From NCBI RefSeq assembly GCF_000969885.1, contig NZ_CP009501.1, positions 2,184,908-2,248,907 on the forward strand: 64,000 nucleotides of DNA. Direction: 5' to 3'. Origin of the DNA: Methanosarcina thermophila TM-1 (GTDB lineage Archaea; Halobacteriota; Methanosarcinia; Methanosarcinales; Methanosarcinaceae). The notes under the pieces were generated by a model. That model saw only the letters and a list, made by a program, of their open reading frames with translations, had not been told where the DNA came from and did not search any database. A program made the position numbers and the translations under genes. Below are positions 21,474-63,202 of the stretch, piece after piece (position 1 is the first letter of the stretch; every line of letters starts with the position of its first letter).

Positions 21474-22469
21474 ATGTTAGAAATCGATGGTTCTTACGGT
21501 GAAGGGGGAGGGCAGCTAGTCAGAACCGCTGTTGCTCTTTCTGCAGTTACAGGCAAAGAGATCAGGATTACAAATATCAGGAAAAATAGACCAAGCTCTG
21601 GATTAAAACAACAGCATTTAAAAGCCCTTGAAACTGCAGCGAAAATTTGCGAAGCCCGAGTTTCGGGACTTTTCCTGGGCTCTACTGAGCTTTCTTTTGC
21701 TCCAGTGGAAATAAAGGGGGGTAAGTATAATATTGATATTGGGACAGCAGGAAGCATAACCCTGCTGCTCCAGTGCATCATGCCAGCTCTGCCATTTGCG
21801 AAAGAAGAGGTTGAGTTAACGATAAAAGGAGGGACAGACGTGGCATGGTCTCCGACAGTACACTACTTACAACATGTGACCCTCAAAGCTCTGGGAAAGC
21901 TTGGCTATTCAGGTAGCGTAACCCTGAAGGAACACGGTTACTATCCTAAAGGAGGAGGGAAAATTTCCGCTTCATTTAAACCTTGCAGGCTTAAAGGATT
22001 TCATTTTTTAAAAGAAAAGGAAGAGATAAAGGGGATTTCTCACGCTTCGAATCTTCCTGCCCATGTACCTTTACGTCAGGCTGAAGCTGCCACCGCAAGA
22101 TTAAAAGAAGCCGGATATTCCTCACAGATCGAGACTCAATCTTTTGAAGCCTTTTCGACTGGAAGCGGAATAACTCTCTGGACAGGTTATATAGGTGGGA
22201 GTGCACTAGGGGAAAGAGGGCTGCCCGCTGAAAAAGTAGGCAAACGCGCCGCAGATGAAATTATTTCTGAACTTAGAGCAGGCGCTTCTGTGGATACACA
22301 CCTGGCAGACCAGCTAATACCGTACATGGCTCTTGCAGGAGATAGTTCTTACACAGTAAGGGAACTTTCTCTTCATACTGCTACAAATATCTGGATTACT
22401 GAACAATTCCTTGATGTTAAATTCAAGATAGAGGAAAAAGAAGGCGTTTTTGAAGTATCCGTGGATTGA
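21474..22469 (+). CDS. rtcA: RNA 3'-terminal phosphate cyclase
   Basis: It converts RNA 3'-phosphates to 2',3'-cyclic phosphates using ATP. The N-terminal signature is EIDGSYGEGGGQLVRTAVALS (the family's GxGGGQ patch), RPSSGLKQQHL follows, and HLADQLIPYMALA near the end carries the nucleotidylated histidine. At 331 aa it is full length. The GGGGGAAGG upstream is a strong ribosome-binding site for ATG 21474. It lies 37 nt after the flavoprotein gene on the same strand, and faces the kptA gene tail to tail. At 21702-21719 the coding sequence contains an exact ORB core (see findings). Confidence 0.93.
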   Translation: MLEIDGSYGEGGGQLVRTAVALSAVTGKEIRITNIRKNRPSSGLKQQHLKALETAAKICEARVSGLFLGSTELSFAPVEIKGGKYNIDIGTAGSITLLLQCIMPALPFAKEEVELTIKGGTDVAWSPTVHYLQHVTLKALGKLGYSGSVTLKEHGYYPKGGGKISASFKPCRLKGFHFLKEKEEIKGISHASNLPAHVPLRQAEAATARLKEAGYSSQIETQSFEAFSTGSGITLWTGYIGGSALGERGLPAEKVGKRAADEIISELRAGASVDTHLADQLIPYMALAGDSSYTVRELSLHTATNIWITEQFLDVKFKIEEKEGVFEVSVD

Positions 22470-26909: not shown

Positions 26910-26989
26910 TCATTCCCCTTCTTCGCTTTATTCCTGATTTACTCCTTCAACCCATATTTTAGCAAAATAAAAGTTTATGAAGTTGCGTT

Positions 26990-27010
26990 CCAGTGGAAAT
27001 AAAGGGGTCT
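26990..27010 (+). repeat. Origin recognition box (ORB) A, distal site
   Basis: It reads CCAGTGGAAATAAAGGGG followed by TC. This is the archaeal ORB layout: a dyad around TCCAGTGGA plus a G-string, bound by Orc1/Cdc6 in other archaea. Confidence 0.75.
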
Positions 27011-27166
27011 AAAAAATTTCCTGCGAGAAAATAGAAAGCATTACAAATATAATTTGAGTTTTTTCTAAACTGTATAAGCCTGCTTTCTAAAATATACTTT
27101 TCTTCTGCACTTATTCTTTATACTTTCTGCAAACGGTTAAAGATTTTTCAGTCTCAGCAAAAATCT

Positions 27167-27187
27167 CCAGTGGAAACAAAGGGGTTC
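27167..27187 (+). repeat. Origin recognition box (ORB) B, distal site
   Basis: It reads CCAGTGGAAACAAAGGGG followed by TTC, in the same orientation as ORB A and 177 bp from it. Similarity continues for about 20 bp downstream of both boxes, so they arose by duplication of a longer unit. Confidence 0.75.
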
Positions 27188-27330
27188 TGAAAATTTTCCT
27201 GCAAAAATCCCCTAAATTTTTCTTCATGAAAAGCAAAAGGTACCTTAAAAAGAATGCCCTCCTTACTTCTTGCAAACTTCTATTCTCTGCAAAAAAAGCA
27301 AATGCCGTTATCGTTATGTACCATTGACTC

Positions 27331-27340
27331 ATATATATAA
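27331..27340 (+). promoter_or_regulatory. TATA box of the first CBS gene
   Basis: ATATATATAA predicts transcription from about 27362 and a leader of about 230 nt, long for an archaeal mRNA. Confidence 0.45.
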
Positions 27341-27592
27341 GTATCACAAAAACACCCGAAAAGTGTGGGGAAGACACTTAGAGGGAGCGAACAAAAAAAA
27401 TAAATCCGAAAACTAAGGATTTGCTGGAGTATCATCTTTAAAAAAGCTAATTATTGCAGGACCTGAACCGGAGGGAAGACTAAGGTAGTCTGAAAGTTTT
27501 TTCCAAAGGAAACTGGAAGCCTGATGAGCTTTTATATCGTGAGTTTTATTATTGAATTGCCGGAGTTTGGAACGAAGGGGGAGCGGCAGTAA

Positions 27593-28858
27593 ATGGCAGA
27601 TGGACCTGAGAGGGACATAGATGCTGAGAGCGGAAATTATGCTGACATTCACAATAGAGAGATTGAAAGAGAGCTCTCAGTTGCTGAAGTTATGAATAAA
27701 GCAGTTATAGTAATAGATATCAACTCAGATATTCCTGCTATTGCAAGAGAAATGGTCAGTCGTGATGCTGGAAGCGTCATTATCACTGAGAATGGTCAGG
27801 CTATGGGCATCATAACTGAAAGAGATCTTGTAAAAAGTATTGTTACAGAAAACAGAAAACCAGATGAAGTGAAAGCAGAGGAAGTCCTCTCAAGTCCTCT
27901 TGTAACTATAGAGCCTGAAGCTGATATAATAAAAGCTTCTGAAATCATGTTAAAAGCAAATATTAAAAGGCTGCCAGTCCTGAAAGACAGAACAGTAATA
28001 GGAGTGATTTCAAATACTGATATTCTGATGGTAACACCTGGACTTAATACTATTCTTAAAGATCTTATTGAAATGAATAGAGACGCTCTCCTCTCCATTC
28101 CGCCAAGAGACGAGATCCCGGATTTAAAAAATTCCAGAATAAATGTATGTGAATCCTGTGACTCTATTTCCTTTGACCTGAAGTATCTAGACGGCAGGTA
28201 TTTATGTGGAAGCTGCCGGCATGAGCATGATATAGAGGCTGACAGGGGAAGATATGCTGGTCTCCACAATAGAAATATTGGTAAAGTCTCAGTTGCTCAA
28301 GCTATGAACAAGGCAGTCATAATAATGGACATAGACTCAGATATTCCTGCTATTGCAAGAGAAATGGTCAGCCGTGATGCTGGAAGCGTCATTATCACTG
28401 AGAATGATAAGGCTATGGGCATCATAACTGAAAGGGATCTGGTAAAAGGTATTGTTGCAGAAAACAGAAAACCAGATGAAGTAAGAGCGGAGGACATTCT
28501 CTCAAGCCCTCTTATAACTATAGAACCCGAAAAAAGTATTGCAGAAGCTTCCGAAATAATGTTAAAAGCAAACATTAAAAGATTGCCAGTTCTGGAAGAC
28601 AGAAAAGTAATAGGAATAATTTCGAATACTGATATCCTGATGGTAACACCTGGACTTAGTACTATTCTTAAAGATCTTATTGATATGAACAGAGAAGCTC
28701 TACTATCTGTCCCATCGATTGAAGAAATTTCAGAGTCTGAAGATTTTCCCTCGGGAATATGTGAATCCTGTAATACTTTCTCATATGACCTTAAATTAGT
28801 GAACGGACAGTACCTATGTGGAAGATGTCGGGAAGAAGTAGGGGAAAATTACGAGTAA
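27593..28858 (+). CDS. CBS-domain protein, internally duplicated, with two zinc ribbons
   Basis: The 421-aa protein is two copies of one module. Each module is a pair of CBS motifs (Bateman module; about 35-150 and 240-360) and then a small C-x2-C...C-x2-C ribbon (CESCDSISF..CGSC near 185-208 and CESCNTFSY..CGRC near 395-415). The copies share long identical runs such as AIAREMVSRDAGSVIITEN at about 67 and 274, and DNA identity is also high, so the duplication is recent. Bateman modules usually bind adenosine ligands and control a partner. No catalytic domain is present. It is the first of five CBS genes in a row. Confidence 0.85.
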   Translation: MADGPERDIDAESGNYADIHNREIERELSVAEVMNKAVIVIDINSDIPAIAREMVSRDAGSVIITENGQAMGIITERDLVKSIVTENRKPDEVKAEEVLSSPLVTIEPEADIIKASEIMLKANIKRLPVLKDRTVIGVISNTDILMVTPGLNTILKDLIEMNRDALLSIPPRDEIPDLKNSRINVCESCDSISFDLKYLDGRYLCGSCRHEHDIEADRGRYAGLHNRNIGKVSVAQAMNKAVIIMDIDSDIPAIAREMVSRDAGSVIITENDKAMGIITERDLVKGIVAENRKPDEVRAEDILSSPLITIEPEKSIAEASEIMLKANIKRLPVLEDRKVIGIISNTDILMVTPGLSTILKDLIDMNREALLSVPSIEEISESEDFPSGICESCNTFSYDLKLVNGQYLCGRCREEVGENYE

Positions 28859-28957
28859 TAATTTAATCTTGAATATAATCTTGAAATAGTAATGTATAAT
28901 CTTGAGATAGTAATTTCCAGAAATTCTTTTTCTAAAGGGAGTATAGGAAGGTAGACA

Positions 28958-29773
28958 ATGAAGGTTAGCGAGATTATGTCAGAAGAGCCTGTGAGCATCA
29001 AAGAGGAGGACTTTATTACTCATGCCCGTAAACTGATGCGAAACCACCTTCTTCGAAGCCTCGTTGTTGTTGACGAAGAGAACAGGCTTGTTGGAATGTT
29101 GAACGACCAGGATATCTTGAGGGTTACGTCTACACGTTCAAATGTCACAGTAGGGGGGTATGCAAGCCAGTCTCCTACAATCACTCCAGATATGGATATT
29201 ATGAAGGCTGCAAAGTTAATGGTAGAATCAAAGCAAAATAGAGTTCCGGTTGTTAAGTCAACTACGGACCGCACCGTTGTTGGAATTCTCAGCAGTGTTG
29301 ATATTCTTAGAAATGTGGAAGTCCCAAAGAATGTTCCCAGCACGCTGGAGGCTATAATGACGAAAAAAGTCAAAACCTGTTCGCCAGATGACAAAGTTAA
29401 CACGGTTTGGGGGCATATGCTTGAGACAGATTATACGGGTATTCCTGTTATCTCAAAGAAGGGCGAGCCTATTGGAATGATAACCAGAAGGGATATAATC
29501 AAATCGGGTGCAGTCCGCATTGAAGTCGAAGATGAAAGGCATACAAAGCCTAAAGAAAGCCCGAAAGTTGAAAAGGTAATGTCAACTCCTGCCTATACAC
29601 TTTCTGAAAACGACTCAATCCAGAGTGCAATTGATGTGATTCTTCGCTATGATATTGGAAGAGTTACCATAGTAAATGAAGAGGGTAGAGTTTCTGGAAT
29701 CGTTGATAGACAGGATCTTCTGGAAGCCATTGCCAATGCATGGCCCGAAAAACTCCTCGATGATCGCTTTTGA
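28958..29773 (+). CDS. CBS-domain protein (four CBS motifs)
   Basis: The 271-aa protein consists only of two Bateman modules: [15 protein letters not shown] and [13 protein letters not shown] in the first half, [15 protein letters not shown] and [15 protein letters not shown] in the second. The last motif ends [11 protein letters not shown]. It is a probable ligand-binding regulator with no output domain. AGGAAGG about 9 nt before ATG 28958 supports the start. It lies 99 nt after the previous CBS gene and is likely co-regulated. The ligand and partner are unknown. Confidence 0.85.
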
Positions 29774-30097
29774 AAGAAATTATATGGGATATCTTTGGTG
29801 AAGATATAGCGACTAACAGAAGGCAACAGCTGACAGAGAATTAACCTGAAAAGCGGTTGAATATTTTCACGCAAAAAGATTATAACGTCAAAGATCATCA
29901 TTAATAATAATTATAGATTCACAAATGAAAAGAAACTTCTAGGAAAGATTCGGGGGAAATTGCTTTCAGGTTTTATTTTTTCCAGGAGCAAACCCGTGCC
30001 TGCTAAAAATTTAACTGTGGACTCCATGTAAATTTCTGCAAGACAGAAAGAAAAAGAAACGGAATATGAAAAAAGCAATTAACTGTAACTGGATTCG
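29774..30097. other. Intergenic region within the CBS cluster
   Basis: 324 bp, AT-rich. I see no hairpin terminator, repeat or ORB here. Confidence 0.4.
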
Positions 30098-31096
30098 GTG
30101 ATCCTATTGAACAGAAATAGTACATTTTCGTCCGTCGATAAGATGAAAGTTCAGCCAGGTGTGAGCAAGTCCAAGAAAGCGCAGCAGAAAGACCCGCATA
30201 CGATTAGCAGCATGGGCACTATGCGAATAGGTCCTGAGTTTAAATCCCGTATCTCAGAACATGAGGGAAAGATCCTGGCCCTGGCAACAAGAAATGTAGT
30301 AACCCTCCCTCCTACCGCAACAATTATGGAAGCAATCAAGATTATGACTGAGAAGAGGTTCCGGCGCATTCCAATTACAGACGCTGGAACGAGAAGACTG
30401 GAAGGGGTGGTTACTTCCGTAGACATTATCGATTTCCTGGGGGGTGGCACAAAGAACCTGCTTGTTGAGAATCGCTTTAAAGGTAACCTTCTAGCTGCAA
30501 TCAACGCCGAAGTAAGGCAAATAATGGAAACTAATATTCCTTATCTCAATGACCAGGCTGACTTTAAAGATGCAGTCTCAATGATGGTCGAAAAGAGGAC
30601 AGGCGGACTGCCAATTGTGAATAATAACATGCAGGTTGTTGCAATCTTTACCGAAAGGAATGCAATTGAACTGATGGGCGGGCTTGTGACAAATCGGACT
30701 GTTGATGAGTACATGACCGAGAACGTCAAGATGGTATCAACCGATACACCTATTGGTCAAGCAGCAAAAGTAATGGTAAGTAACAGACTCCGAAGGCTTC
30801 CTGTAGTTAAGGATGGGATCTTTGCGGGAATTGTCACTTCCTCTGATATTGTCCATTTCCTTGGCAGAGGAGATGCTTTCACCAAACTGACAACAGGAAA
30901 TATTCATGAGGCATTTGACCAGCCTGTAGGATCTATCGTCTCAAGAGAACTGATATGGACTGAACCAGGGACAGACCTGGGAAAGGCAATGGAAATAATG
31001 CTTGAGAAAAAGATAGGTTCACTCCCGATTCTGGAGGATGGGGTGCTCCGTGGCATCATTACTGAAAGGGATTTCCTGAGATCACTGCTTGAATGA
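30098..31096 (+). CDS. CBS-domain protein with N-terminal extension (four CBS motifs)
   Basis: The 332-aa reading has about 60 residues without a clear fold, then two Bateman modules: [16 protein letters not shown] and [17 protein letters not shown], then [16 protein letters not shown] and [16 protein letters not shown]. It ends in [12 protein letters not shown]. The start is uncertain. GTG 30098, TTG 30107 and ATG 30143 are all in frame, and GGTGATCC (30097-30105), complementary to the 16S end, is too near TTG. ATG 30143 would remove 15 residues. The function is inferred to be adenosine-nucleotide sensing, as for its neighbours. Confidence 0.82.
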
Positions 31097-31688
31097 ATTG
31101 CGAAGAAATGAATTGATTGGAACCAATCCCTATTAGTTTTGAACGATGCGGGACAGTTCGAGCTGGCAAAAATTGGCGAAAACTGTCCCAAATGTCCTCA
31201 AACTATCCCGGAATTTGACACAGTATAATGAAGTTGGAGTGTAAGAACTGGATCTAGAGTGTAAAAGTTGGATCTGGAATGTAAAGCTGGATCTAGAGTA
31301 TAAAAGTTGAATCTGGAATGTAAAACTGGATCTGGAGTGTAAGAAACGGATCTGGAGTATAAGAACTGGAATTACAATAGACCCGGAATTAGAATAGATC
31401 CGAAGATTTAGGACGTAATCTTTCGAGAGCTTAAATTTTCAGGAGTTTTGGAGAAAAGGAAAATTCCCTGGTGGAAAGATTGAGAAGTAACTCGACTTTG
31501 AATATTCAGGATTTTGAAGTGTAGCCCATTTTGAATAGAACTTTTTCAAGTTAGCCTCACTTCAACAAAAAGCATACGTTACTTCTCTAAAACTTTAGCG
31601 TATACAGCTAAAAATTGTGAAGTCTGCAATCAATTCAAAAACTATAATTATCGATACTTATATATTATGAAAGTGAAGGAGGTACTTC
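31097..31688. other. Intergenic region with tandem repeat inside the CBS cluster
   Basis: 592 bp. The repeat block at 31228-31385 is listed separately. The remaining sequence is AT-rich. GGAGGT at 31679-31684 is the ribosome-binding site of the next gene. No RNA gene is recognised. Confidence 0.5.
31228..31385. repeat. Tandem repeat, 19-20 bp unit, about 7 copies
   Basis: Copies of GTGTAAGAACTGGATCTAGA and its variants (GTATAAAAGTTGAATCTGGA and similar) stand head to tail. Confidence 0.85.
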
Positions 31689-32534
31689 ATGAACGTGGCG
31701 GACATCATGAGCTCACCTGTATATGTTATAAATGCAGATGAGCCCGTGTCACATGCGAGAAAACTGATGTTAAGGCATAAAATCAGTACGCTGCTTGTCC
31801 TCAACGAAGGCAAGATGGTGGGAATCGTCACAAAATCAGACATCGCTAACCGGCTGGCTCAGGCCGAACCTCTCTGGAGGAGGAGGCCAATAGACCAGGT
31901 GCCTATCAAGTTATTGATGACTGAATCGGTTATTACCATCTATCCCGAAGCCTCTATTTCCCAGGCAGCTGCTTTAATGCTTGAAAACAGAGTGCACAAC
32001 ATTCCGGTAGTAAAGAACGATATTGTAGGCATTGTAACCAGGACAGATCTTGTGCGCTATGTTGCAGAAAATGAAGAGGAAATAAAAACAAAAATCCCCA
32101 AATTAATGACGGAAGATATCGTTTCTGTTCACAGACATCACACAATCAACCATGTAATTGACGAAATGAACAGAAATGAGATCGAAAGAGTAATCGTTAA
32201 AGATGATGCAGGAAAACCAGTAGGGATTATTTCCAGAAAGGACCTTGCTTTAAACCTCTTAACTGACTTTCAGGGCGAACTTTCCACAAAGAACATAAAA
32301 ATGACTCGTAAATCTTCTCCTGGAGGCCAAAAAACCTACAGATATGTAAAAGAGGTACCTTTAACCGCAGAGGACATAATGGTTTCTCCGATAGTTTCCA
32401 TTGACGTAAATGAAACTGTCAGTAACGCCGCAAAAAAGATGATTGAAGAAGGGCTGACTGCGCTGCCTGTCAGTGATGGAGAAGATATAGTGGGAATATT
32501 AAGCAGAACCGACATTATGAAAGCCGTCCTCTGA
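31689..32534 (+). CDS. CBS-domain protein (four CBS motifs)
   Basis: The 281-aa protein has four CBS motifs: [48 protein letters not shown] and [17 protein letters not shown] basic linker ([17 protein letters not shown]) comes before the last one. It has no other domain. GGAGGT 7 nt before ATG 31689 is a strong ribosome-binding site, better than those of its neighbours. It ends in [12 protein letters not shown], the same tail pattern as the other CBS proteins here. Confidence 0.86.
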
Positions 32535-32704
32535 AACATTGTAATGTGAAATACATGCTGCATAAAAAACGTGAAGAAGTTAATAAAGCAGCAAAAGTAA
32601 GAGAAAGATGCAAAATTAAAGTGCAGGAAAACGGATGAAGAAAACACGCAGAAAATTGCGGAAAAGTATGATTCAAAACTCTGGATACGCATGAGGTGAA
32701 TTGC

Positions 32705-33481
32705 ATGCAAGTTAAAGACATAATGGTACAGCCATATAAAATTAACAAGTCAGACACCATATCTCACGCCCTGGACCTTATGGAAAAGAAGAATACAAAG
32801 CGCCTGCTGGTAGTCAACGGCGATCAGGTAATGGGTGTACTTACAATGAGAAGTCTGACAGAGCAGCTCGGAACTCGCAAGAAACTGAGCAAACCTGCAT
32901 CCTCTTTGCATGTTGCAACAGCCGTATCCGACAACTTTGTAAAGGTTCTGCCCGATACCGATGTCAGAGATGCCCTTACCCTAATGAAAAAGAAAGGTGG
33001 CGTAATTATTGTCACTGATAACGGAAACGCCCTGGGTTGGGTGACACCCCAGGAATTCATGAAGATAAACCACTTCACTGGCTTTGTTGGGGAAGTAATG
33101 GAGAAAAACCCTATCGTTGTCAGCCCTTCTGACAGAGTGAGCCACGCCAGACGGCTTATTCTTGATAAGAATGTGGGAAGGCTGCCAGTAGTTGAAAATG
33201 GAAAACTCGTAGGTATTATTGCTGAGGATGACATCGCCTTTGCCATGCGTTCTTTCAGAGACCTGGTAGCTGACAACCAGCAAGATTCAAGGATAAGAAA
33301 CCTGCTGGTAGGGGACATTATGACCCGCAGTGTCATAAGTGTTCATACCAATACTCCTCTTGCAGAAGCTGTCCAGATAATGATAGAACACGATGTTGGA
33401 GGTGTTCCGGTCCTTAACCTGGAAGAGGAACTTGTTGGTTTCCTTGCCCGGAGGAATATAATAAATACAATTGAGGAATAA
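32705..33481 (+). CDS. CBS-domain protein (four CBS motifs)
   Basis: It has 258 aa from ATG 32705, which has GAGGTGA 5 nt upstream; the GTG at 32696 overlaps that site and is rejected. Motifs are [15 protein letters not shown], a diverged second repeat ([19 protein letters not shown]), [16 protein letters not shown] and [16 protein letters not shown]. The second CBS lacks the usual D-I-M start, so this module may bind ligand at one site only. It is the last gene of the CBS run and is followed by a terminator. Confidence 0.86.
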
Positions 33482-40868: not shown

Positions 40869-42113
40869 TCATGAAAACATTTTGCTAAAAGCAGACGTTT
40901 TAAAATCCACCAGGGGTTTGAGCCTGTAATCCTCAAGAAGTACTTTTCGAGTGTTTTCTACTGGAACACTCAGGGAAATTTCTTTAGTTCTGCCGTAACG
41001 ACCTTTGCTTACAACCACTGCATTAACTATGCCCAGCATATCAAGCTCGGACATGAGGTCGGTAACCCTGCGTTGCGTAAGGATATCTACGTCAATGTGA
41101 TGGCAGAGCTGGCGGTAGACGTTGTACATCTCGCCTGTCGTGACATTCTTACCTTCTCTGCCCCGGCTCCGCAGCAGAATAATGCTGTAAAGTACGAGTT
41201 TGGACTGGGTGGGAAGGGTCCTTACTACTTCGACCACGCGATCGATTTCGATTTTTTCCTGAGCACGTCTGACATGCTCTTCAAGAACCTGGGGCTGGTT
41301 TTCCCGCTCTGCAATTTCTCCTGATACCCGAAGGAGGTCAAGTGCACGCCTTGCATCACCGTGCTCCTGGGCTGCAAATGCAGCGCATAAGGGAATTACC
41401 ATTTCACCTAGAGCGCCTTCATTGTAAGCCATCTTTGCTCTTTGTTTCAGGATATCACTGATCTGTTCAGCATCATATGGAGGGAAAATGAGTTCCTCTT
41501 CACCCAGGGAACTTTTAACCCTGGGGTCCAGAAACTCAGTGAATTTCAGATCGTTTGAGACACCAATCATACTGACTTTGGCTCTCCGCAAATCTGTATT
41601 GATTCTCGATAGATTGTAAAGGACATCATCACCTTTTTTGATAAGCTTATCAATTTCGTCCAGAATTATGATAATAACCTGCTCTTTTGAGTCAATTGCC
41701 TCCTTAAATTTCATGAAGACCTGATCCGTAGGCCACCCGGTCATAGGAACTTCTTCTTCAAAATGCCTGGCAAGATTTGCAAGGAGCCGATACTGTGTGT
41801 CGATTACTTCACAATTAATATAAACAACTGAACAAAAAAGTGATTTTTCTTCGCTTACTCTTTCAAGTTCTTTTCCAACGTAGCGAGTGACTGCTGTTTT
41901 TCCTGTTCCTGTTTTTCCATAAATCAACACATTGGAAGGAGTTTCTCCTCGGAGTGCAGAAACCAGGATTGTTGCCAGACCATTAATTTGCTCGTTCCTA
42001 TGCAGTAAAAGATCAGGTGTATAAGAAGGTCGAAGTACTTCTTTATTTTTGAAAATTGATTTTCCCTCAAGTAATTTTTCGAATAAGCCGTCCAATGATT
42101 GAGTTTTTATCAT
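40869..42113 (-). CDS. orc1: Orc1/Cdc6 replication initiator
   Basis: This AAA+ initiator binds ORBs and loads MCM. Walker A is YGKTGTGKTAV (near 65-75), Walker B is IIILDEIDKL (near 150), sensor 1 is GVSNDL, and sensor 2 is in HGDARRALDLL. A winged-helix domain covers the last ~110 residues (LTQRRVTDLMSELDMLGIV). At 414 aa it is a complete archaeal Orc1. The upstream 2.5 kb is the likely origin, the usual arrangement of origin next to orc1 in archaea. The gene reads away from it. Confidence 0.95.
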   Translation of the reverse strand: MIKTQSLDGLFEKLLEGKSIFKNKEVLRPSYTPDLLLHRNEQINGLATILVSALRGETPSNVLIYGKTGTGKTAVTRYVGKELERVSEEKSLFCSVVYINCEVIDTQYRLLANLARHFEEEVPMTGWPTDQVFMKFKEAIDSKEQVIIIILDEIDKLIKKGDDVLYNLSRINTDLRRAKVSMIGVSNDLKFTEFLDPRVKSSLGEEELIFPPYDAEQISDILKQRAKMAYNEGALGEMVIPLCAAFAAQEHGDARRALDLLRVSGEIAERENQPQVLEEHVRRAQEKIEIDRVVEVVRTLPTQSKLVLYSIILLRSRGREGKNVTTGEMYNVYRQLCHHIDVDILTQRRVTDLMSELDMLGIVNAVVVSKGRYGRTKEISLSVPVENTRKVLLEDYRLKPLVDFKTSAFSKMFS

Positions 42114-42343
42114 AATGATCCTCTATAAAGATTTATGATGTCAAGTATGTTTGGGGTTAAGGTAGTTGATATACATTTTTTTATAAAGATAGTTGACACA
42201 TTTATTTACTTTTAACATGGATAATCGGCACACTCAGCGTATTTGAGCAATGCTAATATACGCGATTAATTAATAAAGTAATATAATATACATAATTATA
42301 TAATATACAAAGTTATACATGGCTATAAGGTGCACATTAAATT

Positions 42344-42412
42344 TGTAAAGTAAACATAATATACACTGTTAATTGACACAGTAAATAACTCGTATACTAT
42401 CTTTACTTTACA
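42344..42412. repeat. Nested inverted repeat upstream of orc1
   Basis: The outer arms TGTAAAGTAAA (42344-42354) and TTTACTTTACA (42402-42412) are exact complements. An inner pair ACTGT/ACAGT lies near 42365-42382. It could be a cruciform, or an operator in the orc1 promoter. Confidence 0.6.
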
Positions 42413-42929
42413 CCTACATTCATTTTTGCTTTTACAGCAACTGTTTTTAATGTTTTATTGCTTTAAAGTGTTTTTCAGCTGCCTGAAATCAGGATTTTTC
42501 ACAGGCGGCTCCGTTTTTAATTCTCTGAACCTACAGCATTGAATACTCATGTTTTTAGAGCTATATTTTTATAAGTTCTCTAGGTATCTTTCCTGAAGTT
42601 ACCTGCCTAAATTACCTGTTTAGATGACTTGCATAATCTGATTACTTGCCTAATAATCCTGATTATACTTGCCTAATAATCCTGATTACTTGCCTAATTT
42701 TTCTATCCATATTTTAGATAGCTGTAACCGTAATTGCTGTATAAGCCCTGTATTAATATCAATTGCTGCTAAACTATTTTCAGGTAATATTTTCTAAGTG
42801 GAGTTGTTTTTAGGTGATATTTTTAGGTAATGTTATGCTCTTGATCAAAGAGAGTCTCAGAGCCGTTATGAATAAGATTTTTTAATGGGAGTTCTGAAAG
42901 GGGGATTTGGAAAAGAATGTTTTTTAATT

Positions 42930-43065
42930 CCAAATTTCACTGAACTTCTAATCCAAATCTCACTAAACTTCTAATCCAAATCTCACTAAACTTCTAATCT
43001 TTAACTTCTAATAATCTTTAACTTCTAATCTTTAACTTCTAATCTTAAGATTCTACTATAAACTT
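42930..43065. repeat. Tandem repeat in the origin region
   Basis: Repeats of AACTTCTAATCCAAATCTCACT shorten into (T)TTAACTTCTAATC units. There are about seven copies of the AACTTCTAAT core. Confidence 0.85.
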
Positions 43066-43539
43066 TAATTTTGGTTTTTAATTTCGAGCGTTTAACTTTT
43101 AATTTTTAACTTTGAATGTTTAACTGCAAATTCTTAAATTAAAATTCTTAAATCTATATTATTATTTCGAGATTTCGAGGGTTAAACTCTACTTTATGAT
43201 TGTTGGATATTTAGTACGCTGGATTTTTACCACATTGGATTTTTACTAGATATTTTTCTGCTTTCTATGAAAAAACCTGTAAACCCCAATCATGAGGGAG
43301 AAGGGATAGTAGATACATGTTTCTTATAGTTAATGCTTGAAATTCTTACCTTCTGTTAATTGCTCCTAAGACGTGGGGCAAATTTTACTTATTGAGGCGC
43401 ATCTCAAGCCTGAAGAAAACCTTTATTCGGGGTCTTCTTTAGCCAAAATTTTAGGTGAAATTGGTATATAAACAAGTAATTTTAAGCTATATTTGCAGTA
43501 GATGCAATGGAAGTACACGTTATTAATTGTTATGGTATA

Positions 43540-43561
43540 GACCCTTTTATTTCCACTGGAA
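43540..43561 (-). repeat. ORB 1 of the origin region
   Basis: The minus strand reads TTCCAGTGGAAATAAAAGGG plus TC. The dyad is intact, and the spacer to the G-string differs slightly from the consensus. Confidence 0.75.
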
Positions 43562-44110
43562 CTTGATTTTATTTTAAATATATACCAAGAAAAACGATAA
43601 CAGGAAACATAATCAATTTGAGCAAAAATATTCTTGATTCCATAACCACTGGAGGTTAAATTTTAATCCTTCTTTTCGTATGGAAGAAGTTATGAAAAGT
43701 TTTTACTCTTTTTCTAAAGTTAAAAGAATAAAAATTTTAAGATAAAATAAGAATCCTGTGTGAATTCAGTATGAGTGAATTTATTGCTGTAGTAAATTGA
43801 AAAAATTAAGATAGAGAAAATTGGAAAAATAAAAAATAGAAAATGAAAAATCAAAAGTTGGTCATAAAAATAAAGAAATGAGTAAAGTGAAAGAAAAATA
43901 AGTGAAAGTGGGCAGGAAAATAAGGGAAATTAGGAAAATAAAGGAAATAGGAAAAGTGAAAGAAAATAGGAAAAATAAGGGAAATAGAAAAGGTTAGAAA
44001 AGGTGAAAGGAAATAAAGAAAAATTAAAAAATAAGGGAAAAATAAGGAAATCTGGAAGAAAAAAAGAAAAGCTGAGAGAAAATAAGGAAAGAATGAATGA
44101 AAATAAAAAA

Positions 44111-44133
44111 GGACCCCTTTGTTTCCACTGGAA
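44111..44133 (-). repeat. ORB 2 of the origin region
   Basis: The minus strand reads TTTCCAGTGGAAACAAAGGG plus GTCC, the closest match to the archaeal ORB consensus in the window. A TATA-like TTTATATA (44136-44143, plus strand) touches it. Confidence 0.85.
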
Positions 44134-44149
44134 AGTTTATATAACCCCC

Positions 44150-44169
44150 GGACCCCATGATTTCCACTA
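44150..44169 (-). repeat. ORB-like site 3 (degenerate)
   Basis: The minus strand reads TAGTGGAAATCATGGGGTCC. It keeps half of the dyad and the G-string and stands in the same orientation as ORB 2, 17 bp away. Confidence 0.5.
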
Positions 44170-44194
44170 AAAAGACATCAGGGCTTGAGCCAAC

Positions 44195-44217
44195 AAAATA
44201 AAACGAAGTTTTATTTT
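44195..44217. repeat. Inverted repeat in the AT-rich origin core
   Basis: AAAATAAAAC (44195-44204) and GTTTTATTTT (44208-44217) are exact complements around GAA. It lies at the left edge of the AT-rich core. Confidence 0.65.
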
Positions 44218-44350
44218 AGTTGGGAACAAAATAATGTTGTTTAGTTATAGAAATTTTATTATATATAGTTAACTATTACTAAATATTTAATAATTAGTTT
44301 ATTTAAATGAAAAGTAATGGAAAGATCGTCATTTTTTACCATTAGAAGAC

Positions 44351-44386
44351 AGTTCCATTTGACATTTTAGTTCCATTTGACATTTT
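44351..44386. repeat. 18-bp direct repeat beside ORB 4
   Basis: AGTTCCATTTGACATTTT occurs twice in tandem (44351-44368 and 44369-44386), directly before ORB 4. Confidence 0.85.
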
Positions 44387-44406
44387 CCTTCTTCCATGAA
44401 AACATC

Positions 44407-44429
44407 TCCAATCGAAATAAAGGGGTCCC
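44407..44429 (+). repeat. ORB 4 of the origin region
   Basis: It reads TCCAATCGAAATAAAGGGGT plus CCC. The dyad has changes (AATCG in place of AGTGG), and the spacer and G-string are consensus. It faces ORBs 2 and 3 across the AT-rich core. Confidence 0.6.
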
Positions 44430-44586
44430 TCTCTAAAGAAGACATCTCTATGATTAAGATTTTGTGGAATTTTTTCTCTACTTTTTATTCTTTAAAGCAA
44501 GGTTTGGCTCTTCTAATTGTATTGTAGATTATCCGGTAATTAGCAGTTAATTCCATAAATCTTTTAAATAAAACTGGTTTTACTCT

Positions 44587-45792
44587 ATGCACATGAATGA
44601 GAAGGGTCTTTCCGAGAAGGAGATATTTTCCTATCTGGAACATGTAAAGTCAGAAGATACGGATTACTATAAGGTTTTAAGTTCAATGTGTACTCGCCCA
44701 CATAAAATTGCGGTTGAGGCTCACAGGATGTTTATTGAGGCTAACCTCGGTGACCTGGGACTTTTTGCAGGTGCTCACAGGCTGGAAAGGGAAGTGGTTA
44801 TGATGCTTGGAGAACTTCTCCATGCTCAATCTGTTAATGCTCAGTCTGCTGAGACTCCTTCTGGGAGACCCGGTGAGGGTTCGATTTACGGTTATCTCAC
44901 AACAGGAGGTACGGAATCCAATATCCAGGCTGTCAGGGGCATGAAAAATCTGGCTACTGCGGGTAAGAAGATAGTGGGGACGCCCAACATAGTTATTCCC
45001 GAATCAGCTCATTTCTCGTTTGACAAAGTTGCCAATATGATGGGCATTGAGGTTAAAAGAGCTCTTCTGGACTCTGAATTCAAGGTGGATATTGTATCTG
45101 TAAAAAGCCTGATAGATGCAAATACTATAGGACTTGTAGGAATAGCAGGAACTACAGAATTCGGCCAGATAGACCCTATTGAGAAACTCTCAAAACTTGC
45201 TCTTGATAATGAGCTATTCCTTCACATTGATGCAGCTTTCGGTGGGTTTGTGATCCCATTCCTTGAAAACCCGCAGCCTTTTGATTTCAAAGTTCCAGGT
45301 GTCACTTCCATTGCGATAGACCCACACAAAATGGGGCTCTCTACAATCCCATCGGGTGCCCTGCTATTTAGATCTCCTTCTTTCCTTGACTCTCTCAGAG
45401 TAAGCACTCCGTATCTTACAACCAAGGCACAGTTCACTCTTACAGGCACCCGCAGTGGGGCTTCAGCTGCTGCCACATATGCAGTCATGAAACATCTGGG
45501 CCGTGAAGGGTATAGAAAAAATGTACAGTATTGCATGCAGCTTACTGAAAAACTGGTTAAAGGAGCTAGGAAACTAGGTTTCGAACCTCTGATCGAGCCC
45601 ATAATGAATGTAGTTGCCCTGAGAGTTCCAAACCCTGACCTTGTTCGGGAACAACTCCTTAAAAGATTCGGATGGAATGTCTCAATCACCCGTAATCCCA
45701 GATCTCTCCGTCTAGTTCTCATGCCCCACAACACAGCTCGGGACATAGAAGAATTTCTGCAGGATTTGAAAAAAATAACAGCAGAAATTTAA
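44587..45792 (+). CDS. mfnA: L-tyrosine/L-aspartate decarboxylase MfnA
   Basis: This PLP enzyme makes tyramine for methanofuran, and beta-alanine from aspartate in some archaea. The signature [14 protein letters not shown] lies near 99-112, [10 protein letters not shown] near 212, and the PLP lysine in [14 protein letters not shown] near 245. The 401-aa length is normal. ATG 44587 or 44593 can start; neither has a strong ribosome-binding site. It is a single gene directly beside the putative origin and reads away from it. Its role in cofactor synthesis fits with ftr about 5 kb away, an enzyme that uses formylmethanofuran. Confidence 0.92.
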
Positions 45793-61788: not shown

Positions 61789-62643
61789 ATGCATCCTGTG
61801 ATTATATTTTTTCTCGCCCTTTTCTTAATTCTGCTTCTTACAGCTAGATTCAGGTTGCACCCTTTTCTTAGCCTTATTCTTGTATCTGTGTTTACGGGCA
61901 TTCTTGCAGGAGAACCCCTGAGTACGGTTGAAGCGATAACCAAAGGGTTAGGCAGTGTTTTTTCCCGTTTTGCTATCATTATTACATGTGGAAGTGTCAT
62001 CGGAATTCTGCTGCAGAGCACGGGAGGAATGTCCTTAATAGCTTCTGATATTATACGTTTTTCCAGAAATCCTCTGCTTGCTCTGAATCTCTTTGGTTTT
62101 CTTTTTTCTGTGCCCCTGATGTGTTACATTCTTGCCTATGTTATCTTTATTCCAATAACTAAAGAGTTGGCTGCCAGACTTGATGACCCCCTTATTTCCA
62201 CTGCAACTGCACTTGCACTTGGGGCTGTTGCCTCGTTTAACCTGGTCTACCCATCACCTGTAGTAATTTCGGCAGCGGGGGAACTCTCAGCAGCATTGAC
62301 AGGCTTTTTATCCTGGGACTTCTTGTTGCAGTTCCGGTTTCCATTGCAGGTTACCTTTATGCCAGATGGCTTGGAGAAACTGAACTCAAAAGCATTTCTA
62401 ATAGAGTAAATGAAAAAAGAGCTGAAATTCTGAAAAAAATATGAAAGTTTATAAGAGTACTGCTGAAAAACCCCGGCGGCTTGAGGCTTACGCTCCTATC
62501 TTTTTCCCTTTAATCTTTATTTTCTTTAATACAGGTTTTGAACATTCGTACCCTATGCTTGAGTTTCTGGGAGATCCAAACATTGCGCTTCTTACAGGAG
62601 TTATCCTCTCCATTTTTTCCGGGAGGAGGCTCGACTCTTTTTG
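61789..62643 (+). pseudogene. GntP-type permease remnant (two frameshifts, truncated 3' end)
   Basis: The first piece (61789 to about 62290) encodes about 170 residues of a gluconate-permease-type membrane protein with hydrophobic helices (PVIIFFLALFLILLL, IIITCGSVIGILLQSTGG). The second piece continues in another frame (L-F-I-L-G-L-L-V-A-V-P-V-S-I-A-G-Y) to a TGA at 62442. The third continues in a third frame from 62441 (EAYAPIFFPLIFIFFN, FEHSYPMLEFLGDP). It ends near FSGRRL, about 285 residues against roughly 430-450 in intact GntP. A functional permease from this locus is unlikely. Confidence 0.8.
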
Positions 62644-62693
62644 TATTTTCATATCCTTTTTATTTTTGCTAAAGCACAACTATAAGTTCATAA

Positions 62694-62709
62694 TTTGGCA
62701 TGTGGCAAA
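62694..62709. promoter_or_regulatory. Imperfect dyad upstream of the DtxR-type gene
   Basis: TTTGGCATGTGGCAAA is a 16-bp imperfect palindrome (12 of 16 positions match their complement) 32 bp before the regulator start. It could be an autoregulatory operator. Confidence 0.35.
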
Positions 62710-62740
62710 CAATAAATACCGGTTTTTTGTATTTCTTTAT

Positions 62741-63202
62741 ATGAACGATCAAAGCTATCCTGAATTTACAGGTCTTGAACTCTCCCCAAGAAAGGTAGAT
62801 TATCTCAAGTTCATTCTTGAAAAAGGAGGTACTGTAAAAACTACAGAAATATCCTCTGGTCTGCAGGTTGACCCTTCAACTACAAGCAAAACCTTAAACG
62901 AGCTTGCAAGTGCAGGCTACCTGAATCACGTCCCCTACAAGGGTGTAGACCTGACTGAAATGGGAAAAGCATATACCCAATTTCTTGTCCGAAGACACAG
63001 GATTCTCAGTCTTCTTTTAACCCACTACGGGCTTTCTTCGAAGGAGGCATGTGATGAGGTCTCACGCTTTGAAGCTTTTGTCTCCAGGGACGCCGTAAAT
63101 AAAATCTGCAACTCAATGGGTCATCCGATGTTTGGAGTATGTGGAGAAATAAGTCATGAAAAGTGCCTGCATGAAGAAAATCATCATTCAGTGCCGAAAT
63201 AA
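62741..63202 (+). CDS. DtxR/MntR-family metal-dependent transcriptional regulator
   Basis: It has 153 aa from ATG 62741. The winged-helix part has TTEISSGLQVDPSTTSKTLNELASAGYLNHVPYKGVDLTEMGKA, described here by fold, and the metal/dimer domain has RRHRILSLLLTHYGLSSKEACDEVSRFEAFVSRDAVNKI with the usual Cys/Glu/His ligands. The same frame opens further upstream into the GntP remnant (62441), but that part is a permease fragment, so the regulator starts at 62741. It precedes a metal-binding transporter protein gene, so it is a likely zinc or manganese sensor. Confidence 0.87.
   Translation: MNDQSYPEFTGLELSPRKVDYLKFILEKGGTVKTTEISSGLQVDPSTTSKTLNELASAGYLNHVPYKGVDLTEMGKAYTQFLVRRHRILSLLLTHYGLSSKEACDEVSRFEAFVSRDAVNKICNSMGHPMFGVCGEISHEKCLHEENHHSVPK

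Follow-up and report, generated by a model that had tools for sequence, protein, structure and literature searches.

A predicted replication origin in Methanosarcina thermophila and conserved Orc1-type boxes at loci outside it

The window, the whole stretch of DNA analysed here, comprises 64,000 nucleotides (G000, C1, positions 2184908 to 2248907) of the single-contig 3.13-Mb genome of Methanosarcina thermophila TM-1. An initiator gene, orc1/cdc6, is separated from mfnA by a gap that the sequence-only reading had singled out as the longest gene-free region and proposed to be a chromosomal replication origin, with four ORBs and an AT-rich core. It is indeed the longest stretch of the window without an ORF of at least 80 aa, the runner-up being 1523 bp. 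The features of this locus are as follows.

40869 to 42113, minus strand: orc1/cdc6 initiator gene, 414 aa (NCBIfam NF001625, ORC1-type DNA replication protein, 728.5 bits; cut-off 501)
42114 to 44586: intergenic region between orc1 and mfnA bearing the predicted origin, 2473 bp
43540 to 43561, minus strand: ORB1, TTCCAGTGGAAATAAAAGGGTC, 1 mismatch against the consensus
44112 to 44133, minus strand: ORB2, TTCCAGTGGAAACAAAGGGGTC, 0 mismatches
44151 to 44172, minus strand: ORB3, a degenerate dyad with G-string, 39 bp from ORB2
44195 to 44219: core inverted repeat of the type CAAAATAAAA-N5-TTTTATTTTG
44227 to 44248, plus strand: core element CAAAATAATGTTGTTTNGTTAT, 0 to 3 mismatches in 12/12 origins
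44260 to 44267: AT-rich core TATATATA, putative unwinding element, ATATATA being aligned in 12/12 genomes
44406 to 44427, plus strand: ORB4, inverted with respect to ORB1 to ORB3
44587 to 45792, plus strand: mfnA, the other flank of the gap

The orc1 product is one of two members of the genome above the cut-off of the TIGR02928 profile, and its best solved relatives are the archaeal Cdc6/Orc1 proteins 2qby_A (E 1e-112) and 2v1u_A (E 2e-106), both solved on origin DNA. All four proposed ORBs are real, and with up to 3 mismatches a 23-bp ORB pattern matches the window seven times, where shuffled sequence would give 0.00. ORB2 and ORB3 stand opposite ORB4 across the AT-rich core, giving the inverted arrangement that had been described, and the interval between ORB3 and ORB4 is up to 92% A+T. 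The perfect 10-bp inverted repeat noticed in the core, AAAATAAAAC (44196 to 44205) and GTTTTATTTT (44209 to 44218), is also present. Most of the 12 genomes aligned have kept it, and in G008 both arms carry matching changes. Overlooked at that stage was a second strongly conserved piece of the core, the element at 44227 to 44248, for which samples totaling 0.96 Mb of the genome gave a single match elsewhere, at 4 mismatches. Sulfolobus oriC1 likewise has inverted ORBs on either side of an AT-rich core, within which is another conserved motif, ucm (PMC12141716); the likeness to CAAAATAATGTTGTTTNGTTAT is one of layout. The element may be where a second origin-binding protein attaches, comparable to the ucm/UBP pairing of Sulfolobus, and its conservation provides a specific target in the search for such a protein.

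For comparison the orc1-mfnA gap was taken from 11 genomes; from G001, which showed no mfnA within 9 kb, only the ORB core was used, making 12 origins. The order ORB1(-), ORB2(-), ORB3(-), ORB4(+) with an AT-rich core is common to 12/12 of these Methanosarcina origins, the design being held although the surrounding sequence diverges. The spacing of ORB2 and ORB3 is exactly 39 bp in every origin in which ORB3 was scored (that of G013 is unscored), and ORB1 has a counterpart in the other scored genomes at a variable distance. Between ORB1 and ORB2 lies a symporter-like (solute:sodium) gene or fragments of one in G001, G007, G009, G010 and G011, accompanied in G007 and G010 by transposase-like ORFs, these gene names being read from sequence; ORB1 thus tolerates distances of several kb.

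The known archaeal oriC design is an intergenic region adjacent to orc1 with polar ORBs opposed across an AT-rich core (PMC12141716, PMC4010727), and the region from 42114 to 44586 has both the neighboring orc1/cdc6 gene and the polar inverted ORBs around such a core. The sole second orc1/cdc6 gene of the genome (at 2305116) has no surrounding ORBs at up to 4 mismatches. The region is almost certainly the chromosomal replication origin, oriC, a prediction supported by this agreement in design, by the layout shared by 12/12 origins and by the lack of ORBs at the second orc gene. The check on GC skew that had been suggested gave no significant break (permutation p=0.44), and neither TA skew (p=0.83) nor coding-strand skew (p=0.76) gave a significant two-arc split in the same sample of 60 stretches of 16 kb, or 31% of the genome; as archaeal composition skews are low in amplitude (PMC12999951), this is a weak negative. 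As an origin the region is ordinary, one having already been predicted for Methanosarcina mazei.

Three of the seven ORB matches in the window are outside the gap, at 26988, at 27165 and in the 62185 region, and a further box, at 21700, emerges from a scan of the genome; the sequence-only reading had passed over these as well. They are given here as satellites of the origin.

21700 to 21721, plus strand: satellite ORB inside rtcA (RNA 3'-phosphate cyclase), with synonymous sites frozen in 27 genomes
26988 to 27009, plus strand: satellite ORB rpa-1, 0 mismatches, in the intergenic region between rpa and a CBS-domain gene
27165 to 27186, plus strand: satellite ORB rpa-2, 177 bp from rpa-1 and in the same orientation
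62185 to 62206, minus strand: satellite ORB in the gene of a GntP-type permease; 21 genomes agree at 100% of the scored bases

Allowing up to 3 mismatches, the genome has 13 ORB sites, of which 11 are no more than 60 kb from the origin. The exact core of the box, CAGTGGAAAYNNNGGGG, has 79 matches in ten complete genomes (43.6 Mb) against 0.34 expected by composition, and in the same genomes the reversed-pattern control has 0 matches on either strand; such controls rule out chance matches as the source of the boxes. Nine exact sites are present in the M. thermophila genome, all on seven loci: the origin (ORB2), aroE, rtcA, the rpa pair, gntP, a site 3' of a methyltransferase-like gene (a name read from sequence, there being no Pfam match) and a distant pair. 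In other Methanosarcina genomes, too, these loci bear boxes. Of the six non-origin loci, five lie less than 60 kb from the origin (binomial p=4.8e-7), with aroE, rtcA and the rpa pair to its left and gntP and the methyltransferase-like 3' site to its right. Few of the 79 exact cores are off the known loci, those at G001 2965158 and G008 2374784 being apparently unrelated sites; a 3-mismatch match inside a 1145-aa gene (2279807) and a weaker match found in two genomes within a DisA-like gene were omitted from the satellite set. By sequence, initiator-type boxes are present at conserved loci outside the origin, one of the features by which a titration locus would be recognized.

Three of the satellites are inside genes, and their codons were compared in 27 genomes for rtcA, 30 for aroE and 21 for gntP. 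The rtcA box has CCA, GAA and ATA in 27/27 genomes and GGG in 26/27; that of aroE has GAA in 30/30, GGG in 29/30 and GTG in 28/30, and that of gntP has CCC, TCC, ACT and GCA in 21/21, with variation mainly at the three unconstrained positions that separate the dyad from the G-string. Codon 81 of rtcA specifies K, E, R or G and codon 120 of aroE K, R, E, G or M, and in each the third position, which supplies the G-string with its first G, is invariant. Among 116 codon columns with a variable amino acid, the third base is invariant in eight, and five of the eight are within boxes. By mean base conservation the box ranks 6 of 1952 windows in rtcA, 2 of 1646 in aroE and 1 of 946 in gntP, ranks whose draws are not independent because of shared ancestry, with the contrast to the remainder of the gene being internal to the same trees. 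Conservation at the protein level is ruled out by the codon tests as the cause of these boxes; they are under selection at the DNA level. In M. thermophila gntP is broken and truncated (window 61789 to 63202; Pfam GntP_permease) and its ORB is kept, an intact ORF of 438 aa being present in a relative (G006). The tail of the broken gene continues into a regulator-like ORF.

Bacterial parS sites are dispersed, origin-proximal, palindrome-like and often intragenic, with selection acting on the DNA. A comparable role for the satellites, centromere-like or nucleoid-organizing, with Orc1 or some other reader of the dyad marking an origin-proximal domain, would suit both their clustering near the origin and their frozen state inside genes, and the occurrence of boxes on both sides of the origin fits either a segregation or architecture role or an early-duplicated initiator sink. 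The motif is, however, that of the origin's own ORB, polar G-string included, and the distant cluster is beyond the origin domain; such a role is unlikely, if still the one among the alternatives to be taken most seriously.

The rpa pair is 17 kb from the origin, flanked by genes for a multi-OB-fold single-strand-binding protein and a CBS-domain protein (Pfam). It is present in 13/13 genomes of the genus with a spacing of 177 to 180 bp, in 17/17 testable named loci (genomes partly overlapping the genus set) with a spacing of 167 to 180 bp and one of 247, and, beyond the genus, in four genomes from two genera, where the spacing is 167 to 168 and 135 bp. The gap between rpa and the CBS-domain gene has no Rfam match up to E=1, and a non-coding RNA there was rejected on that basis. 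At 27300 to 27380 of the window, upstream of the CBS-domain gene, there is a very conserved CGTTATCATTATGTACCATTGA with a TATA-like run, kept in two other genera. The five consecutive genes from 27593 to 33481, downstream of rpa, are CBS-domain-like, the first of them by a Pfam check.

At some satellites Orc1 could instead be acting as a transcription factor, for instance on the CBS-domain gene downstream of rpa, where a promoter-like block always follows the pair at ~145 bp, in other genera too, and there is a precedent in Orc1-2, a non-initiator Orc1 paralogue that regulates DNA-damage-responsive expression in archaea (PMC9738581). The genes with satellites have no common function, however, and a purely transcriptional role is disfavored because three of the boxes are intragenic and those of the distant cluster sit between convergent gene ends, where a promoter would be unexpected. 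Such a role is doubtful, and more so than a parS-like one.

The distant cluster, 390 kb from the origin in M. thermophila, is between the convergent ends of genes for a DeoC-family aldolase and a radical-SAM protein (Pfam). From one to three boxes, all in the same orientation, are present in 27/30 loci of the genus, with 0 control matches, and boxes are present in two testable genomes of another genus as well. Insertion-sequence-like ORFs occur inside the cluster in several genomes, where the boxes are not all lost. In a further genus five genomes have an ORB just 3' of the same aldolase gene with a different neighbor on the other side, which is suggestive rather than a census as these five were picked for having an ORB match. 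Two aldolase genes that resemble one another (L079 4067 to 4864 and L078 6092 to 6952) are each found near a satellite ORB, one at the aroE operon and the other at the distant cluster.

That satellite clusters, and the distant one in particular, serve as secondary or dormant origins is the least probable of the alternatives, and quite improbable: several ORBs in an A+T-rich intergenic region kept across the genus would suit it, as would the dormant origins known in Haloferax (PMC4595724), but the boxes of the rpa pair and the distant cluster run one way, with no inverted ORB found apart from one 5-mismatch match in G005, and the distant cluster has no neighboring orc gene and a distance from oriC that varies among genomes from about 0.2 to 1.8 Mb. 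The core element CAAAATAATGTTGTTTNGTTAT has no match at up to 4 mismatches in the rpa and distant satellite regions, and its absence rules out these two loci as whole-origin copies. With both core element and inverted boxes missing, the rpa and distant satellites are probably not origins.

The best explanation, to which we give a probability of about 0.5, is that of an oriC with satellite ORBs that titrate Orc1, or otherwise regulate it, after firing. Binding of Orc1 at the satellite boxes is likely because they match the ORBs beside orc1, polar G-string included, and the nearest solved relatives of the protein are 2qby_A and 2v1u_A. Orc1, made next door, would bind the boxes that flank the AT-rich core, ORB2 and ORB3 opposite ORB4, and would open that core, and it would also bind the fixed set of satellites. 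As most of these are within 60 kb of the origin they would be replicated early after firing, doubling the number of competing Orc1 sites, and on the simplest view could then withdraw free Orc1 from the new origins, or alter its nucleotide state nearby, with the outcome that re-initiation is limited.

Several features sit less easily with titration. Eight perfect boxes would be a small sink if Orc1 were plentiful and the sites did not act catalytically, and the position of the rpa pair upstream of the promoter block of the CBS-domain gene also fits control of transcription. Strict proximity is not required, as satellites lie far off in a few genomes: in G004 the distant cluster is ~1.76 Mb and aroE ~1.42 Mb from the origin and the boxes are still retained, which action in trans of the datA kind would allow. 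In bacteria, E. coli datA and DARS and other clusters of DnaA boxes are non-origin initiator boxes at fixed loci, near to or far from the origin. The Methanosarcina satellites resemble them in being non-origin boxes at fixed loci (datA is cited in PMC3936714) but are boxes of a different initiator family, the comparison made here being one of box placement rather than of nucleotide-state effects or dependence on IHF.

Titration or regulation of Orc1 is ranked first because of a precedent in Haloarcula hispanica, where the ORB-rich oriC2D exerts negative control over an origin, probably via titration of Cdc6, and has been likened to datA (PMC3936714). The region has no origin activity itself and is proposed to titrate the cognate Cdc6, the kind of role suggested here for the satellites. 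What counts against carrying the parallel over is that oriC2D is a single region directly downstream of its cdc6 gene, whereas the Methanosarcina boxes are single or paired over ~100 kb with a distant cluster besides, three of them being intragenic.

The origin predicted for M. mazei by Z-curve is, as cited in PMC4164010, a single one, as in M. thermophila in the same genus; the account as given there makes no mention of dispersed boxes, a 39-bp spacing or a core element, all of which M. thermophila has. A search of a collection of open-access papers turned up no account of conserved ORBs away from the origin in methanogens, and the novelty of the network is to be taken as provisional.

By what means archaea restrict initiation to a single round per cycle has been stated to be unclear (PMC7617429). 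Conserved satellite ORBs, three of them inside unrelated genes, suggest a way in which initiations could be counted or restrained. More tentatively, and at somewhat less than even odds, control of this kind in Methanosarcina via fixed distal Orc1 boxes, some intragenic, may be an archaeal counterpart of bacterial initiator titration that uses an initiator of eukaryotic type. If so, the same control logic would have arisen in bacteria and in archaea on unrelated origin architectures. The short list of conserved 17-bp Orc1-type boxes in a genetically tractable genus makes the control of initiation directly testable.

Two further sequences bear a resemblance to the boxes described. At L081 5675 to 5755 (G000 2270674 to 2270754) a dyad lacking a G-string stands 59 bp ahead of the perfect ORB found 3' to the methyltransferase-like gene. 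In another genus of the Methanosarcinaceae the ORB-like TTCGAGTGGAAATAAAGGGGT is found near the start of a mutL-like gene (L406, L412 and L413, of G095, G097 and G093, respectively).
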